DNA from: Deltaproteobacteria bacterium
GTDB taxonomy: Bacteria > Desulfobacterota > Desulfarculia > Adiutricales > Adiutricaceae
Direction of reading: 5' to 3'
Assembly: GCA_031273455.1 (NCBI GenBank)
Contig: JAISRZ010000017.1
Span: 1 to 64,000 of the forward strand
Length of the DNA stretch: 64,000 nt
In this document: positions 16,341-49,667 of the stretch, in pieces
How positions within the stretch are numbered: position 1 is the first letter of the stretch
Layout of the letters: each line of letters starts with the position of its first letter
Program-made: the position numbers and the translations under genes
Notes under the pieces: model-generated
The model's input: the letters and a program-made list of their open reading frames with translations, nothing else
The model's database searches: none
Told to the model about the DNA's origin: nothing

Positions 16341-17073
16341 GATTAACTGGGCTCATTCGGCCACGTCTTCGTGACCGGAGTGAGCCGGTTTACCCAGACC
16401 TCTATTTTTTCCGAGCCGAACAATCTCAACGATATCACTTTTGATAGCGCCTACGCCGCCATTTGTGGTCTGGCCGCGGCGGATCTAGAGGCTCTCCTTA
16501 GCGATCGCGAAGGCGCGATTCTCGCGGATCTTATTGAGAAAGGCATCTTGTTCCCAGGGAGCGGTGGCCACGATTTAAGGAACTTGATTGGCGTCTGGCG
16601 CGATGGCTACTCCTGGGACGGCGAGACTAGGGTCTACAACCCTTGGGCGATCCTTAATTTCTTTGTAGAGGCCAAAGTCTTTAGTCACTGGATCGAGTCG
16701 GGTTCGCCTTCTTTTTGGCGCGATCTAGGCGACAGATGGCTTAGTTAATTTCAACTTAGAACTCCCAAAATCTCCGCCAAAATTCGACCTAAGGCGGATG
16801 GTTATCCACGATATCGCCCACTTGGATCCAGCCGTTTCGCTGTTCCAAACCGGTTACCCGATGGTTAAGGAAATTCAACATAACCCCGACAAAGGAGTTG
16901 AGGAATATATCCTCGGTTACCCTAACCTTGAGGTCAGTTCCCTCTTGGCCCCTTTAGCTCTTTCGCTCAAACCGCTGGAAAAGAAGTTGTTGTCTTACAA
17001 GTTGGCCGTAAGATCCCGGGGGACTCTTGGCTCTCCCTGGACCAAGGAGGTCCCAGACGGACTTAAAAAATGA
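16341..17073 (+). pseudogene. Remnant of an AAA-ATPase-like / PD-(D/E)XK family gene
   Basis: Two broken reading frames align with the middle of the full-length relative at 47661-49667. The first (to 16748) has FVTGVSRF, YAAICGL and YSWDGETRVYNPWAILNFF, matching LVTGITRYG, YAGICGF and YNWRGETKVLNPYSIIHFF. The second (16798-17073) has FQTGYPMVKEI and YPNLEVSSLL, matching FHSGYLTVDKV and IPNLEVSSFY. The N-terminal P-loop part and the C-terminal nuclease part are missing and stops separate the pieces. It is a dead copy of a multi-copy mobile gene. Confidence 0.85.
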
Positions 17074-17138
17074 GAAGATAGTGGCTTTTATAGATCAGCT
17101 CAGACTTTAGATCTAAGCTCTTCATCGGACAATAGGAA

Positions 17139-17790
17139 TATATAGTTATACAAGTTTATACAGGGCTATGTCGTGGCTTAGTAAAGTATAGGCCCTATAT
17201 TTAGACTATAGCTAGTTAGCCCAAAATTCTCTTGTGTATGTAGGTCAAGCGGACCGCGATTAGTTGTGGTGTATAGTTATACAAGTTTATAATGAGCTAT
17301 GATGTGGTTGGCGCAAGATTAGACCCCATATTTAGACCAAAGTCGTTTGGCCCTTAATTTCTCTGGGGTTTAAGGGGAAAGCGGACCGCGATTTATAGTG
17401 GTATATACTTATATAAGGTTATACAGGGCTATGTTGTGGGTTATTAAAGTTTAAGTCCTATATTTAGACGACAGTTGGTAAGCCCTAATTTTTCCGCTGG
17501 GGTAGAAGGTCCAGCGGATCGCGGTAAGTTAGATTATATAGTTATATAAGTTTATATAGGGCTATGATGTGGCCGTTAAAAAATTAGGCCCTATATTTAG
17601 ATCCAAGTCGTTTGGCCAAAAATTCTTCTGGGGTTTAAGGGGAAAGCGGACCACGATATATTGGGGTGTATAGTTAAGGAAGTTTATAGCGCTCTAAGTT
17701 GTGGGCGCATATTGTTTACGCCCTATATTTAGAGAACAGTTGCGCGGCCCTTAGGGGGTCGTTTTTTTTGGTCTTCTTCTGGCCCAATTT
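17139..17790. repeat. Five degenerate tandem repeats of about 132 bp
   Basis: Five direct units whose TATAGTTAT-like starts lie at 17141, 17272, 17404, 17537 and 17669, spaced 131, 132, 133 and 132 bases. Each unit has the same order of landmarks: TATAGTTATACAAGTTTATA, then GGGCTATG, then CCCTATATTTAGA. The perfect palindrome GCGGACCGC follows within units 1 and 2, and degenerate forms of it occur in units 3 to 5. No long open frame runs through it. The array lies between a dead nuclease gene and a dead transposase gene. Confidence 0.9.
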
Positions 17791-17837
17791 CCAATCGAGC
17801 GGTTTTAGCGGTCCGTAATTAATCTATCTGTGAATGG

Positions 17838-18310
17838 GTGTGTATCGGGCGGTTAGACCCGGTCACGGAAACGTTCATCCCCAACGATAACTATAGAAAA
17901 TACTACGATGACCGCAATGAGGAGATCAATCCAGCGACCGGCTCCTACTACTGGATTGGGGCCACCTTTCTGATTGGGTCGATCTTAGACTATTTGGGGG
18001 TTACGGACACGCTGAGCCAAACCTTAGGGCCAGAAGGGAGCGCGAATTAAGACCGTAGTCGCTTTCTTGGTCTCCAAGGGCGACGCTAAATAACCTTGTG
18101 GCTTTTGGTCGAGATCACACCTTAGATACGACTCCTTTAACCGAACAATCGGCTAAGAAGCGCTTCGCCTCGATTGCCGCCGCTAAGCGGACCGCCTTCT
18201 TTAAAAAGTGGGTCCAGCGGTCAGAGCCTGGCCCGTATAACGCCTATGACCTCAACTTCGAGGGGGCCACTAAAAGCCTAAGGTCTGGGGCGACCAATTG
18301 CGCAGGTTGA
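17838..18310 (+). pseudogene. Transposase remnant, IS1634/IS4-like
   Basis: Two frames, 17838-18050 and 18098-18310, resemble successive parts of the N-terminal third of the transposase at 20141-21775. The first has IGRLDPVTETFIPN and GATFLIGSILDYLG, matching IGHYTDKGKFV and GATHLLDTIARKIG. The second has FFKKWVQRSEPGPYNAYDLN, matching FFSRQAARHSSPDYLAYDIN, which includes the first catalytic Asp region. The catalytic core beyond that is gone. It is an inactive fragment. Confidence 0.75.
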
Positions 18311-18463: not shown

Positions 18464-19393
18464 TCAATTTTGATTTAAGCTCTTTTTAAAATTAGATAAC
18501 CATTTTTTGGTGGTTCCCATAATTTCTATAATTTCCGCGTCAGGATATCCCTTGGTGATGAGTCTAGACGCTAATTCCTTCCGTCCTTTCTCCAGTCCTT
18601 TCTCCAGTCCTTCCTTCCGTCCTTTCTCCAGTCCTTTCTCCAGTCCTTTCTCCAGTCCTTCCTTCAGTCCTTCCTTCAGTCCTTTCAGTCTTCCATTCAG
18701 TTCCGCATCGGAAAGCATGGGGATAATGCCCCTTCGTATGCCCTCGATTAATTCAACGCTGGCTCTGGTCTCGTTATCAGCGTTTAGGTCTTTGACAACC
18801 TTACAGGCCAATTCCAGCGAGGGACTTAATTTAGCCACTTTCATCAAATCCACCATATTCCTTATGTTAAAAAAAAGCGTCCAGTTTCCCCTTTGAGTTC
18901 CATCGGGAACTCTTGTTTTCGAAAACTCTATGGTATGTATTTCAAGCAACCTAGGAGGAAAAACATCATTTACATTATCATAATGATGAAAATTATGGTG
19001 ATAATGGTTGTTTGTTTTTATTATTGGATAACGCATCACTAAAATACTAGTTACAGGTTTAAGGTTATCATATTTATCGCCTTTTGTTAATTGTTGAGAA
19101 TACATTTTAGACTGATAGTAATACAATCTTTTCCAAATAGATTTTTGCGATTTGACTTGAACTTCAAAGTCAATAAGTTCCTTTGATTTCAATTGAATTT
19201 TGAGATCCAATCTACCATGTTTATCATTTGAAAAATCTGGCAATAATTCTGGGTTCAAAATTTTCAGACCCTGGAAATCCGTAGCGGGCCTACCCAGTAT
19301 CGCTTGAAGGAAATCAGCTAAAAGCTCTGGATGAATAATAAACAATTTTTTGAACAAAAAATCGGTGGTTGGCGGAAGAAAATCTTTACCCAT
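18464..19393 (-). CDS. Rpn-family PD-(D/E)XK nuclease / putative transposase
   Basis: A 309-residue protein of the Rpn/PDDEXK_2 family, whose members are DNA nucleases that promote RecA-independent recombination. The N-terminus has the family opening PTTDFLFKKLF and LLADFLQAILG. The nuclease core is HGRLDLKIQLKSKELIDFEVQV (catalytic Asp, then Glu-x-Gln) and YYYQSKMYSQQL. The C-terminus has a run of EGLEKG units followed by a helical tail, as in many family members. The start has GAGGA 7 bases upstream. It appears intact and is the only clearly intact gene between the dead elements on either side of it. Confidence 0.9.
   Translation of the reverse strand: MGKDFLPPTTDFLFKKLFIIHPELLADFLQAILGRPATDFQGLKILNPELLPDFSNDKHGRLDLKIQLKSKELIDFEVQVKSQKSIWKRLYYYQSKMYSQQLTKGDKYDNLKPVTSILVMRYPIIKTNNHYHHNFHHYDNVNDVFPPRLLEIHTIEFSKTRVPDGTQRGNWTLFFNIRNMVDLMKVAKLSPSLELACKVVKDLNADNETRASVELIEGIRRGIIPMLSDAELNGRLKGLKEGLKEGLEKGLEKGLEKGRKEGLEKGLEKGRKELASRLITKGYPDAEIIEIMGTTKKWLSNFKKSLNQN
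18577..18690 (-). repeat. 12-bp in-frame tandem repeats encoding GLEKGLKEG
   Basis: Repeats of CCAGTCCTTTCT and close variants (plus-strand reading) encode alternating EGLEKG/EGLKEG units near the nuclease C-terminus. Such tracts are prone to slippage and would keep the frame because the unit is 12 bases. Confidence 0.85.
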
Positions 19394-29713: not shown

Positions 29714-30779
29714 GCTCACGAAAAGAGCGGTGGTAGTTAAAGGGCAGCCAATTAGCCTTAGGCGGGTTTTTCCTAGCCAAGGGACTTTCCAACCTTCTTG
29801 TTAGAGTAGCCGGGTTTATGGAGTCAGACGGCGGCCTAGCGAGCGGGTCAACCCCGATCTTAAGATCGTGGGGGCTAGGTTTAGCTTAGCTACGCGGCTG
29901 GCGACAACTGAAGAACCTTAAAGACGAAACTGTCACCAAAATTATCTAGATTAAGGCGCGACCAATGGGGTTCTTAAGCGGAATAATCATAAAAATCAGG
30001 TAGTTAAGGAAAATGGGTTTTTAGGGGAATGGCCGGAAGTTTAGGGGCTTAGAAGCGTCAATCCACTAGGTTAAGGGGTTTGACTGGCTAAAAGCCCTAT
30101 ATTAAGACGCGCTTGACCTTGGCTAACATCGCTAAGAAAAAGACCCGATAAAGCCCCGACTAGTTTAAAAAGAATAGATAAATTAGATGGTTAGGTTTTT
30201 ACGGCCTTAAGGGCCTGGCGTTTTAAGCCTTTAGAGGGCTGGGGCGATTGGCCCCGGACCGTAAGGACTAGGCGGCTAGCCACTTAGAGCCGTGGGGTCA
30301 GATCGGTTTTGAACAATCGATGGTCGAAAACTAGCGAAAAAAAACCTTCTTCAAGGGGTGGTTAAAAAAATGAGAAAGCCCAAAATCGCGGTAACTACCC
30401 CAAAAATCAGACTATCGCCCCCGTTTTTAAGAGAATAAAGGGCTATTTTTGAAACATCGCGGGCTTTTTGGAGTTTTGAACAAGTTATCGACTAAAACTA
30501 AACATTTTTGAACATAGGTCCAAGGGTTAGGGGTTTGGGGACGACCTGCCTTGGGGCGCGTCTTGGGGCGTTTTAGACGCTTAGGGGCTGTTTTTTGAAC
30601 AATGGCCAGAGTGAGGGAGCCGAAAAAGGCGAGATCCTAAGACCAAGAAAAAATTAAGAAGGCCCAAAATCGTGGTAAATACCCCCAAAAACCGAGTATG
30701 AACCCCCGTTTTTCAGGAATAAATGGCCGTTTTAGGAATATCTTGGATTTTTTGGAGTTCTGAACGCGTTTTGAACATT

Positions 30780-30788
30780 TTATCCACA
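30780..30788 (+). promoter_or_regulatory. DnaA box TTATCCACA
   Basis: A perfect match to the bacterial DnaA box consensus, directly after GTTTTGAACATT at the end of a ~140-bp unit. Its counterpart in copy 2 is conserved at 34486-34494. Confidence 0.5.
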
Positions 30789-30919
30789 TTTTTTGGGAAA
30801 TCCCAGGCGGACCAAAGGACAAATCCGCAATCAGTATTTTGAAACTATGAGCTAGGGGGTTTTGTTCAAAACTAGCGAGCCAGGGGGTATCAGCCGCTTA
30901 AGCGAAGGTGTGGACCACA

Positions 30920-30985
30920 GTTTCCCTGGGGAAACTTTATTGAACAATAAACCAGGGGGAAGGGTAGTTGTTTACCCGGGGAAAC
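30920..30985. repeat. Two GTTTCCC-type 16-bp palindromes
   Basis: GTTTCCCTGGGGAAAC at 30920-30935 and GTTTACCCGGGGAAAC at 30970-30985, 50 bases apart, with TTGAACAATAA between them. They are members of the ten-copy palindrome family. Confidence 0.9.
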
Positions 30986-31023
30986 TTACTCGGTGGACTG
31001 GGCGACCCTAAAGTTTAGAACTC

Positions 31024-31284
31024 ATGATTGAGAACATTAACCGGATAGTTAGGGGATCGTTCAACTACTTCCAGAACGCTAAGGATGGAGTAATCCATTC
31101 ATTAGATTGTATTTTCCTTTCAGTGTCGACGCTTGGCCTAAAGCGGCTCTCCGATTACTGTGGTCTTAATATAGGCCCATTAGTGAAGAAAATCTCATGG
31201 TTGGGCGGCGACATGTTGGGCTACGACCCGGCGGAAGAAACTTTACATAATTTTAATATGACGCTTCGCTTGATTATCCTGTAA
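31024..31284 (+). pseudogene. Possible group II intron maturase remnant
   Basis: An 86-codon frame begins with INRIVRGSFNYFQNAKDGVIHSLD. This resembles the maturase (X) domain of group II intron reverse transcriptases, where a LNxIIRGWFNYFKHS...F..LD pattern is usual. The catalytic YADD part and the rest are absent, so this is a fragment at most. The resemblance is short, so alternatives remain. Confidence 0.4.
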
Positions 31285-33537: not shown

Positions 33538-34694
33538 GGCCGCGAACGGGTTAACCACGATATTAAGATTGTTGGGGCCAAGTTTGGCCTAGCGACGCGG
33601 CGGCGACAACTGAAGAACCTTAAAGACGAAACTGTAACCAAAATTGTCTAGATTAAGGCGCGACCAATGGGATTCTTAAGCGTAATAATCATAAAAATCA
33701 GGTATTTAAGGAAAAATGGGTTTTTAGGGGAATGGCCGGAAGATTTGGGGCTTAGAAGCGCCAATCCACTAGGTTAAGGGTTTTGACTGGCTAAAGACCC
33801 TATATTAAGACGCGTTTGACCTTGGCTAACATCGCTAAGAAAAAGACCCGGATAAAGCCCCCCTCGTAGTTTAAAAAGATTAGATAAATTAGATGGTTAA
33901 GTTTTTACGGCCCTAGCGCTCAGGCGTTTAGGGCTCTTAGGGAGCTGGGGCGATTGGCCCCGGACTAAAGGTCCTAGACGGCCAGCCATCTAAGAGCCGT
34001 GGGGTAAGATCGGTTTTGAACAATCGATGGTCGAAAACTAGCGAAAAAAAACTTTTTATAGAGGTGGCGCAAAAATCGAGAAGGCTTAAAATCGCGGTAA
34101 CTACCCCAAAAATCAGAGTATCGCCCCCGTTTTTAAGAGAATAAAGGGCTGTTTTTGAAACATCGCGGGCTTTTTGGAGTTTTGAACAAGTTATCAACTA
34201 AAAGTAAACATCTTTGAACATAGGTCCAAGAGTTAAGGGTTTGGGGACGACCAGCCTTGGGGCGCGTCTTGGGGCGTTTTAGACGCTTAGGGGCTGTTTT
34301 TTGAACAATGGCCAGAGTGAGCGAGCCGAAAAAGGCGAGATCCTAAGACCAAGAAAAAATTATGAAGGCCCAAAATCGCGGTAAATACCCCCAAAAACGG
34401 AGTATGAACCCTCGTTTTTCAGGAATGAATGGCCGTTTTGAGAACATCGTGGATTTTTTGGAGTTCTGAGCGCGTTTTGAACATTTTATCCACATTTTTT
34501 GGGAAATCCCAGGCGGACCCAAAGGACAAATCCGCAATCAGTATTTTGAAACTATGAGCTTAAGGGGTTTTGTTCAAAACTAGCGAGCCGGGGGTTATCA
34601 GCCGCTTAAGCGAAGTTGTGGACCACAGTTTCCCTGGGGAAACTTCATTGACAGACCAGGGGAAAGAGTAGTTGTTTCCCTGGGGAAACTTTTC
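33537..34694. repeat. Direct repeat of ~1.16 kb, copy 2
   Basis: Second copy of 29833-30990, same orientation, differing by scattered substitutions and small indels. It holds ~140-bp units at 34081-34219 and 34364-34494. The matching units in copy 1 start 284 bases apart and these start 283 apart, so the internal structure is conserved. Confidence 0.92.
34486..34494 (+). promoter_or_regulatory. DnaA box TTATCCACA
   Basis: A perfect DnaA box in copy 2 of the long repeat, again following GTTTTGAACATT. Confidence 0.5.
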
Positions 34695-34777
34695 TTGACG
34701 GACAAAGAATGGGTACTGTTTCCCCGGGGAAACTATATTGAGATCAGGGGGAAGGGTAACTGTTTCCCCAAGGAAAC
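34628..34777. repeat. Four GTTTCCC-type palindromes in a cluster
   Basis: Sites at 34628-34643 and 34674-34689 (both GTTTCCCTGGGGAAAC), 34718-34733 (GTTTCCCCGGGGAAAC) and 34762-34777 (GTTTCCCCAAGGAAAC). Start-to-start spacing is 46, 44 and 44 bases, near four helical turns, so bound proteins would line up on nearly the same face. Confidence 0.92.
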
Positions 34778-35136
34778 TTTTTGGGTCATGACTGGTTCAG
34801 AGGTTATTAATGAGTTCAAAGTTGTCTGGGTTGGTGGGGGACTTAGGAGTATTATCGCAAAAAAAACGACACACTGAAGGACGGGGGGGCGGAGTGACCG
34901 TAACCTCGAAGGGCAGACATCAATTGGTGGGGATAGATAAATTATATTTTATTTCAATCATATATCAAGATTTTTCGGAAAGTCGCGGCCCAGGCTTAAA
35001 AAACGGCTTTTGGCGACACTTCTACTGGCGCCCAAAATCTAGGTCGACTAAAATCAGAGTAATGGACATCCTTCTGAACAATGATAGCCGGGAAAAAGCC
35101 TAAAATAGAGGGTTATAGAGCGGTTGGAAAAATCAT

Positions 35137-35279
35137 AGAAGGCCAAAATCGCGGTAAATAGCCCCATAATCAGAGTATGACACCCCGTTTTTAAGGAATA
35201 AAGGGCTGTTTTTGAAACATCGCGGGCTTTTTGGAGTTTTGAACAAGTTATCGACTAAAACTAAACATTTTTGAGCATC
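35137..35279. repeat. ~140-bp repeat unit, fifth copy
   Basis: Shares AAAATCGCGGTAAATA, the GTTTTTAAGGAATAAAGG core and the final GTTTTGAACAAGTTATCG with the units inside the long repeats. The DnaA-like TTATCGACT is at 35248-35256. A TCTGAACAATG motif precedes it, as in the other units. Confidence 0.88.
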
Positions 35280-35600
35280 GGCTGAATGATTAGGGTTTTT
35301 GGTTGACCAACCTTGGGGCGGATCTTGGGAGTTTCAGGCGTATATGGACTATTTTCTGAACAATAGCCTCGGCCAGCGACCCGAAAACAGTAAAAGGCCG
35401 GGTAGGAAAATAATCTATTTTTCGGCCAAGAACGCGAAGCTCCTCTAAAGAGGGGACGGCTACGCTTACTCCATAAGAGTCCCCTCTGATAGTGACTAAA
35501 AAGGACTTATAAAGACCCCGACAAGCCATCGAGGCCAAGGAAGGAAGGCCATCTGGCCTCAAACCTTGAGACCTAGAGATGTCCGCCCATATTACGTTGG

Positions 35601-38069: not shown

Positions 38070-38265
38070 TCGCGAAAGGTCTAGCCTCTTCTAGCTTTTG
38101 GCTGGAACGTCACCGCCCGAGCTTAAAGAACTAGTTAGTGGATCTACCGTTCTAAGAACGCAAGATCTAGAGCGACTAAAATATAAGTTTTAGACATTAT
38201 TCTGAACAATGGTAGGCGCGAAACCGCTAAAAAAAGAGGGTTCCAGGGCAAAACAAAAAATTAAG

Positions 38266-38395
38266 TAAGCCCAAAAACGGAGTGAATACCCCCAAAATAA
38301 GAGTATGGCCCCCCTATTTTACAGAATGGAGGCCTGTTTTTAGAACATCGAAGGTTACTAAGAGTTATGAACATGTTTTAAACAATTTATCGACA
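38266..38395. repeat. ~140-bp repeat unit, sixth copy (diverged)
   Basis: Follows TTCTGAACAATGG and shares AAGCCCAAAA, TACCCCCAAAA and the final TTATCGACA (38387-38395), a DnaA-box variant. It is more diverged than the units in the long repeats. Confidence 0.8.
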
Positions 38396-38630
38396 ACCGC
38401 CAGCGGATCGTGGCCGCTCGCCAAGGGAAGCGGTTTAAAATGGGGTCATAACGCAATAAGCCGCCAGTTTGTTCAAATATGAATTCGCGCCAGCGACCAA
38501 TAAAGCCGATACCTATTAAGATGGCCCCGGCGCCTTAGGGCGCTTAAAGGCTACCCTTTAACCTACGGTCAAAGTGGCCTATCTTCCTTAGACCAATGAA
38601 CCTTAGCGAAAAGGCTCAAAGATTCCCCGG

Positions 38631-38688
38631 GGAAACGTTTTAACCCACCAGATGGACTCCTAGTTTCCCTGGGGAAACTGGTAACCAA
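38631..38688. repeat. Two GTTTCCC-type palindromes
   Basis: GATTCCCCGGGGAAAC at 38631-38646 and GTTTCCCTGGGGAAAC at 38673-38688, 42 bases apart start to start. Confidence 0.88.
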
Positions 38689-38822
38689 GCTTATCTTGGC
38701 TCTAGCCTCGGGTTGGATCTTAATTAAAGCGCCATGTATGGGGGCGATTAAACCGGACTTTTGCGCAAAGAGGGTCGCGATTGACCCTAAAAAACGAAGG
38801 TGGAGGGGTGGGGAAAAAAGTA

Positions 38823-38960
38823 AGAAGCCCTAAAATCGCGGTAACTACCCCCCAAATCTGAGTATGACCCCTTGTTTTTAAATAATGATGAGCCATTTTT
38901 CGAACATCAAGGCGTTTTTCAAGTTATGAACGAGTTTTGAACAATTTTTAAACGTTTTTT
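38823..38960. repeat. ~140-bp repeat unit, seventh copy (diverged)
   Basis: Shares AAAATCGCGGTAACTACCCC, GAGTATGACCCC and GTTATGAACGAGTTTTGAACA with the other units. It is the last unit before cstA. Confidence 0.82.
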
Positions 38961-47155: not shown

Positions 47156-47660
47156 AGGCTATAATTTGGCGACGCTGTTGGTTTTTTTTTATTTATAACT
47201 GTTCACGGGTTTTTCGGGATCTGATGTTTTTTTATCAATAAAATTGATTTTAAAGCCAAATAATTCATTAAAATACCATTAACATATGCCATAAATAATT
47301 AAAACATTAATATATATTTCTACAATAGTGATTATTGATTATTAAATTCGTGGCTTAAGGCGCGGCTAAAAGCGCGATAAACAGTTAAAATATCATATAT
47401 AATGGTTTGAATTAAAGGATTAATACGACTTCTATAAACCCATCAAAGTTACCGCGCCCCTTTAACAGCCTGTTGACCTCCAGGGCGAAAAGACCAAGTC
47501 CAGAATTTAAGCCTTGACCCTAAAAATAGTTGAAAATAAATTTTTATTATGGAATAATTATATTGAAGATTTGAGTAGGTATTTGGCCTTTTAAAGGCTT
47601 TTTGTCCGTCCCTTCGTCTAAATGGTATTGGCGGAGGTTATAGGGTTAATGGAGATGATA
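47156..47660. other. A+T-rich spacer upstream of the AAA-ATPase-like gene
   Basis: About 500 bases, very A+T-rich from 47190 to 47430. No gene or RNA recognised; it presumably contains the promoter for the gene at 47661. Confidence 0.4.
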
Positions 47661-49667
47661 ATGACCATAAAAGAATTACCTTTAGGCGGGCAGAATTTCC
47701 AAACAATAATAGATGGTAATTATTTATACGCGGACAAAACCACATATATATACGATCTGTTAAAAAATTCTAAACAAAACTATTTCCTCTCTCGCCCCCG
47801 GCGATTCGGTAAAACCCTTCTTATAAGCGTCTTGCGCGAACTGTTCTCTGGACAACGGGAACGTTTTCAAGGCCTTTGGATTGGCCAGTCCGATTACGCT
47901 TTTCCTAAGGTTCCGGTCATCCATCTTACCTTCAACTGGGACGCGTACTCTCCAGATATCGCGCGAGAAAACCTCATTTCTAATCTTAGTTCTATAGCCG
48001 AGCAAGAAGACCTCAAAATCGATGCGCCCTCGCCAGCTAAATATTTCGGCGCTCTCATTAAGGCTTTATACCTTAAGTACAACCAGACCCAGGTCGCTAT
48101 CCTCGTTGACGAGTATGACGCTCCAGTCACAAGGATGATGGGTAAAAATAAAGCGATAGCCCTAGAAAACGCCGCGATCTTACGCGATTTCTTCGCCGCT
48201 CCCAAAGATTCCCTCGACCTCAACTATATTCGTTTTATGTTGGTCACTGGTATCACCCGTTACGGCATGGCCTCTATGGACACAGGGCCCAACTACTTTA
48301 ATGACATCTCCCTTGATCCTAAATACGCCGGGATCTGCGGCTTTACCTTGGAGGAATTTGATTCCCTTTTCGCGAATCGGTTGGAAGAGACCCTTTTACG
48401 TCTTAAAAAAGCGAATAAAATGATGCCAGAGGCCACCATCGCGGATTTAAGAGCCAGAACGTTTCACTGGTATAATGGCTACAATTGGCGAGGGGAGACT
48501 AAGGTCCTTAATCCCTATTCCATCATCCATTTTTTTGACCAAAGTTCCTTTGGCAATTATTGGATCCAGAGTGGTTTCCCAGCCCATTTGACCGCTCTAA
48601 TCAAGGAACAGCCCCTGGATATTTTAACCCCCAATCTGGAATCTTATCTCTCGGAGACGATTAGAGATTCGGACATTAATAAGCTTTCGGCCCTTCCAGT
48701 CCTCTTCCACAGCGGCTACTTGACCGTGGACAAAGTCACCTCCTCGCCCGCGCGCGACCCTAAATCCAATAAAACGTCCAACGCGGACCACTATTTTTTC
48801 CGAATTCCCAATTTAGAAGTTTCCTCCTTTTACCGCCGGGAATTTTTCGTTAATATTATGGGCCTTACATCGAGACATGAACTGGAAACCAAAGGCGAGG
48901 ATCTTCGGACGGCTTTTTTGAGCCGTAACGCTATGGAAGCTCAAACTATCTTTAGCTCCTTTTTCCGGGCCATTACTTACCGCCAAAAGCTAGAAGAGAA
49001 AAACTTCCGCGCCTTAGTTCAAATGATTCTTTTTGCCCTGGATTTCGAAGTGGGATCCGAACTTAAGGGCCTAATAGGACGGCTCGACCTGGCCGTGAAA
49101 TTAGGGCCTCGGGTATATTGCGTTATTGAGTTAAAATACCGCCCAGATAAATCACAACTTAAACCCGAGGAAGAAGATAGACTTTTGGCCGCTATGGCCT
49201 GGAAAAGGTTAAGAGATGAGGTGAACGCGAACTTGGCCATCGCGGTCATGCAAAAGCTTGACCCAGCGGACACCATTCCAATTATCGCCGATTGCCCCTC
49301 TGATAAATTAACGGCGACCGAGACTGACCGACTCTTGGCCCAGGCCGCTCTAACTTCGCTAGATAAAAAGGAGATCAATCAAGTTTTGCTTAAAACGGCC
49401 CGGGATAAGTTTTCTGAGGAAGAAATCCAGGAAATCCTCCAAAACGCGGTCTCCCCTTTGGAAAGGACTTCTGAGGTAATTGACCATGAGTTGTCTAAAG
49501 TCGCCCAATTGGCTCTGGAGGCTGTCAAAGACAAGGGTTATCACGGGATTTTGGAACATAAGGCCGATGAGATTATCGACCTGGGTTTAGCGGTCTACGG
49601 TCGTGGCCACCCTATTAAGGTTGTTTTCGGCCCTAACCCAAGCGATAGAGAGCTAGCTAAAACTTAG
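47661..49667 (+). CDS. AAA-ATPase-like / PD-(D/E)XK nuclease family protein, full length
   Basis: A 668-residue protein. The start at 47661 (MTIKELPLG) is chosen by homology with the partial copy at 1-207 and by GGAG 6 bases upstream; longer starts at 47649 and 47622 exist. Residues about 5-280 are the AAA_ATPase-like domain with FLSRPRRFGKTLLISVL (P-loop-like), VAILVDEYDAPVTRMM (Walker-B-like) and LVTGITRYGMAS. The C-terminal DUF1703 nuclease has GLIGRLDLAVKLGPRVYCVIELKY, where Asp and Glu-x-Lys form the PD-(D/E)XK set. A helical tail follows. Such genes are abundant, multi-copy and of unproven function, perhaps mobile or defence-related. Confidence 0.88.
   Translation: MTIKELPLGGQNFQTIIDGNYLYADKTTYIYDLLKNSKQNYFLSRPRRFGKTLLISVLRELFSGQRERFQGLWIGQSDYAFPKVPVIHLTFNWDAYSPDIARENLISNLSSIAEQEDLKIDAPSPAKYFGALIKALYLKYNQTQVAILVDEYDAPVTRMMGKNKAIALENAAILRDFFAAPKDSLDLNYIRFMLVTGITRYGMASMDTGPNYFNDISLDPKYAGICGFTLEEFDSLFANRLEETLLRLKKANKMMPEATIADLRARTFHWYNGYNWRGETKVLNPYSIIHFFDQSSFGNYWIQSGFPAHLTALIKEQPLDILTPNLESYLSETIRDSDINKLSALPVLFHSGYLTVDKVTSSPARDPKSNKTSNADHYFFRIPNLEVSSFYRREFFVNIMGLTSRHELETKGEDLRTAFLSRNAMEAQTIFSSFFRAITYRQKLEEKNFRALVQMILFALDFEVGSELKGLIGRLDLAVKLGPRVYCVIELKYRPDKSQLKPEEEDRLLAAMAWKRLRDEVNANLAIAVMQKLDPADTIPIIADCPSDKLTATETDRLLAQAALTSLDKKEINQVLLKTARDKFSEEEIQEILQNAVSPLERTSEVIDHELSKVAQLALEAVKDKGYHGILEHKADEIIDLGLAVYGRGHPIKVVFGPNPSDRELAKT

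Follow-up and report, generated by a model that had tools for sequence, protein, structure and literature searches.

The 64,000-nt stretch analysed here (hereafter the window) carries, between prmC and a gene encoding a TPR protein, a tandem array of units of about 132 bp (positions 17138 to ~17830; Table 1). The two bordering genes are near-neighbours in congeners, being separated by 0.2–0.95 kb in G003, G005 and G006 versus 6.9 kb in the window, so that the array sits in a lineage-specific insertion of ~7 kb made of decayed mobile genes. Besides the array, this island contains a coiled-coil ORF, an AAA-ATPase/nuclease-like remnant, an unassigned remnant, an intact Rpn-family gene and an IS1634-type transposase gene. 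A previous sequence-only reading had recognized a dead nuclease gene upstream of the array, which is borne out by the tblastn match of the two ORFs to a 681-aa AAA-ATPase/nuclease-like protein. The dead transposase that it placed downstream (17838–18310) is transposase-like by eye but unproven, with neither a family match nor a tblastn match to the two IS1634-type transposases of the window. In the Rpn-family gene, a 12-bp tandem repeat (18583–18686) encodes EGLEKGLEKGRK towards the C terminus of the protein. We also considered the array as part of an insertion sequence and rejected this, since the DNA of the array occurs nowhere else in the genome, whereas pieces of the DNA just downstream do recur.

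Table 1. Coordinates of the array units and of associated features in the window.
Feature	Position	Strand	Remarks
AAA-ATPase/nuclease-like gene remnant	16371–17073	+	two ORFs, frame-shifted; tblastn E 9e-22 to the 681-aa protein encoded at 47622–49667
Unit 1	17138–17268	+	131 bp
Imperfect dyad (unit 1 example)	17158–17207		conserved; TATAcAGGGCTATG ... TATAGGCCCTATATTTAGA on either side of 12 variable bp
Unit 2	17269–17400	+	132 bp
Unit 3	17401–17533	+	133 bp; best partner in 5′ half is unit 1 (84%)
Unit 4	17534–17665	+	132 bp; 3′ half pairs with unit 2 (84%)
Unit 5	17666–17830	+	~165 bp; the most divergent unit; ~30-bp insertion; clear alignment over the first 88 bp, weak thereafter
Intrinsic-terminator-like hairpin and T run	17744–17770	+	in unit 5, GCGGCCCTTAGGGGGTCGT TTTTTTT; pattern match only
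Rpn-family PD-(D/E)XK putative transposase	18464–19393	−	309 aa, intact; TIGR01784, E 5.8e-37

The five degenerate head-to-tail units described earlier were recovered both by TRF, which reported 17132–17688 with a score of 446 at period 132 and of 664 at period 265, and by a seed-based repeat search, which found five in-register copies at spacings of 131, 132, 133 and 132 bp. Pairwise identity between units ranges from 61 to 84%. The array had been placed at 17139–17790, an end that falls short, unit 5 being alignable to ~17830 once its insertion is allowed for, including AGCGGTCCG in place of AGCGGACCG. The seed-based search also detected a repeat spanning two units, 245 nt long and spaced by 265 bp, which corresponds to a two-unit higher-order period in units 1–4. 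Together with the likeness of unit 1 to unit 3 and of unit 2 to unit 4, this repeat points to derivation of the array from a dimer that was duplicated once, presumably with subsequent drift and patchy homogenisation.

The exact palindrome GCGGACCGC is indeed confined to units 1 and 2 within the array (GCGGATCGC in unit 3, GCGGACCAC in unit 4); the same 9-mer recurs alone at 18187, outside the array, and is therefore not diagnostic of it. Among the landmark words proposed for the units, CC[T/C]ATATTTAGA is common to all five, but GGGCTATG is present in units 1, 3 and 4 only, being GAGCTATG in unit 2 and lost from unit 5. The GC content of the array (0.39) is lower than that of most other arrays of the genome.

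The array is a single locus in the 4.24-Mb genome (157 contigs), the one genome of the species covered by the analysis. Searches for the unit in related genomes, by blastn or with a profile, returned no homologue. The best blastn hits outside the genome, among 98 relatives, were AT-rich matches of 20–30 nt, and a profile search of 36 family members (six congeners and 30 others) gave none that was convincing, the weak matches (up to 18.6 bits) being single, AT-rich and non-tandem. The relatives are deltaproteobacterial MAGs (isolate names Nc350, Im510 and Pcl387) which, from their names and genes, we take to be termite-gut MAGs of a lineage presumably close to Candidatus Adiutrix. The array was also absent from plasmids and phages by blastn, and strict motif patterns, of a kind that would miss diverged homologues, matched nothing in GTDB genomes and IMG/VR. 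An orthologous array at the same site was rejected after a search of seven congener loci at full sensitivity: the best match (15 bits, upstream of the TPR gene of G004) is single, AT-rich and not tandem, and we take it as chance. Finally, a dispersed repeat built of short words of the unit was rejected, these words being hardly or not at all more frequent than controls elsewhere than in the array, save for GCCCTATATTWAGAC on the same contig.

Other tandem arrays were sampled from the starts of 100 contigs, amounting to 1.49 Mb of the 4.24-Mb genome. This sample contains noncoding arrays of 91 bp (11 copies), ~190 bp (5), 203–213 bp (5–6), 82 bp (3), 53 bp (4) and 71 bp (4), comparable in anatomy but unrelated in sequence, so that the 132-bp array is one instance of a phenomenon common in this genome. 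Several lack an open frame, and where in addition the period is not divisible by three, the array is unlikely to encode a repeat protein. One array of the sample, L173 (contig C69, 1223–2333), consists of 5–6 units of 203–213 bp between ORFs which by eye encode a Lon-like protease and a biotin-carboxylase-like protein. Its units fold far better than shuffled sequences (z from −3.2 to −5.9), their invariant core is a 15-pair hairpin, and 5 of 43 consensus pairs have changes on both sides; L173 had no Rfam match and no homologue among 39 relatives. As a candidate structured array, L173 ranks above the 132-bp one. The 91-bp array L159 (contig C55, 12509–13520), with 11 copies of 84% mean identity, uniform variation and unremarkable folding, has the appearance of a simple neutral satellite.

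Three readings of the 132-bp array had been offered: structured RNA, protein-binding sites and satellite. The last is the best supported, and we consider it probable that the array is a neutral, species-specific noncoding minisatellite, most likely of no use to the cell. It is built of head-to-tail units with a period well above the ~10 bp that delimits minisatellites, and neither strand has a reading frame open across it, as previously stated. In the scenario that we favour, an intergenic stretch of ~132 bp with an imperfect inverted repeat, which possibly seeded the minisatellite, would have been duplicated in tandem by slippage or unequal exchange within the lineage-specific island, among decayed genes of mobile elements; a dimer would probably have formed first and then been duplicated as a whole. 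The copies would later have drifted and been partly homogenised. Two observations run against neutrality: variation is non-uniform along the unit, and folding of the units is slightly more favourable than that of noncoding DNA elsewhere in the window.

The first of these bears on the binding-site reading, which remains a candidate, although a rather unlikely one: the units would be tandem operator- or centromere-like sites, each with one imperfect dyad (TATAnAGGGCTATG ... TTAGGCCCTATATTTAGA) for a putative regulator or partition protein. Invariant columns are clumped along the unit (p = 0.001 with five units, 0.006 with four), with conservation highest in the dyad arms and variation highest between them, a pattern that could reflect protein binding. 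However, two of seven further noncoding arrays in the genome, L173 and L178, which are unrelated in sequence, clump comparably or more strongly, so that clumping is no specific evidence of selection; it may come from patchy homogenisation. The array is moreover conserved in no relative. Among the ORFs listed around it, with a family scan of the adjoining ones, no replication, partition or regulator gene was recognized, which weakens this reading, and with it that of an iteron- or parS-type array, for which an adjoining replication or partition gene is expected.

Further support for binding sites comes from GCCCTATATTWAGAC: with one mismatch allowed, its occurrences in the 4.24-Mb genome are all on this contig, two in the array and three in noncoding repeats at 30–34 kb, with no control hits. 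This word was, however, spotted at 30–34 kb before being tested, two of its three copies there are mutual duplicates, and profile scores in this region are insignificant (E 0.3–0.4). The sequences at 30093–30108, 31163–31178 (minus strand) and 33796–33811 are GCCCTATATTAAGAC or near it and resemble GGCCCTATATTTAGAC of the array; the combined pattern, with at most one mismatch, has whole-genome matches on this contig only. The window also has a long noncoding region (29900–31000, 33600–34790, 35101–35400 and 38161–38960) with a ~1.1-kb repeat in two copies plus partial copies; the two copies are 80–95% identical by segment and lie one on each side of an IS1634 transposase gene. This region also contains two DnaA-box-like sites (TTATCCACA) and nine palindromes like AGTTTCCCYGGGGAAACT, some of them 44–50 bp apart. 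A more elaborate version, in which the array would be a species-specific set of dyad sites for a putative protein, sharing GCCCTATATTWAGAC with the repeat-rich noncoding DNA 13–17 kb away, in a genome with several unrelated arrays of which at least one other has an inverted-repeat core, appears to us more doubtful still.

The structured-RNA reading, in which rightward transcription of the array would stop at the terminator-like hairpin of unit 5 (from 17744), is disfavoured, and we give it very little credence. Folding z-scores on the plus strand are −0.7 to −2.6 for the units (mean −1.8, versus −0.63 for noncoding DNA elsewhere in the window), and the array taken as a whole has −3.1, but the minus strand is equally unusual (z −4.1), hence there is no strand preference; modestly low folding energies on both strands are expected of DNA with inverted repeats. 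The minimum-energy fold differs from unit to unit, mutations in units 2 and 5 break the one consensus stem, and Rfam gave no match to the array. Covariation, which had been proposed as a check, speaks against an RNA as well: the RNAalifold covariation term is unfavourable (+1.2), both sides have changed in only 1 of 13 consensus pairs, and the dyad stem shared by the units has no compensatory pair among 11, with 65.5% of cells paired versus 64.4% in shuffles. Promoter-like sites number 0, against 2.2 in shuffles.

Coding readings fare worse. The period near 132 (44 codons), in a genome with coding arrays of periods divisible by three, could recall decayed repeats of a broken tandem-repeat gene, which we judge highly improbable given the spacings of 131, 132 and 133 bp, the missing open frame, a stop at the same place in units 1–4, the low GC content and a variable fraction by codon phase (0.47, 0.50, 0.55) without third-position excess. 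Least credible of all are mini-genes of the form ATG-xxx-TGG-(4 variable codons)-TAG/TAA (MSWLSKV, MMWLAQD, MLWVIKV and MMWPLKN in units 1–4): start, Trp and stop are co-located in four units although the intervening codons are the most variable part, but these frames have seven codons only, lack a well-spaced ribosome site, are without start and stop in unit 5, and the conserved blocks reach far beyond them.

As a probable minisatellite, the array resembles bacterial intergenic minisatellites and VNTR loci in its noncoding units, arranged head to tail and tens to hundreds of base pairs long, in being unique to one lineage and in the absence of sequence conserved between loci. It differs from them in the strong divergence of its copies (61–84%), which suggests that it is old and probably no longer changing in length. 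The arrays of contigs C69 (203–213 bp) and C55 (91 bp and ~190 bp) have a similar anatomy and are likewise noncoding and unique or unmatched; likeness to the 132-bp array was noticed only in short words (GGCCCTTAGGGGG), and their GC content is higher. That of C69 shares with it clumped conservation around an inverted repeat, but its stems are real and show some covariation. REP/BIME-type palindromic intergenic repeats also have an inverted repeat in the unit, but these, like MITEs, are interspersed genome-wide, whereas the 132-bp array occupies one locus. A CRISPR array was rejected, since similarity spans the whole 131–133-bp unit instead of short repeats with unique spacers.

Taken alone, the array adds one locus to the bacterial minisatellites and is of little significance. 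Considered together, the unrelated noncoding arrays of this presumed termite-gut genome could serve the study of how satellite-like DNA originates in bacteria with large decaying intergenic regions.
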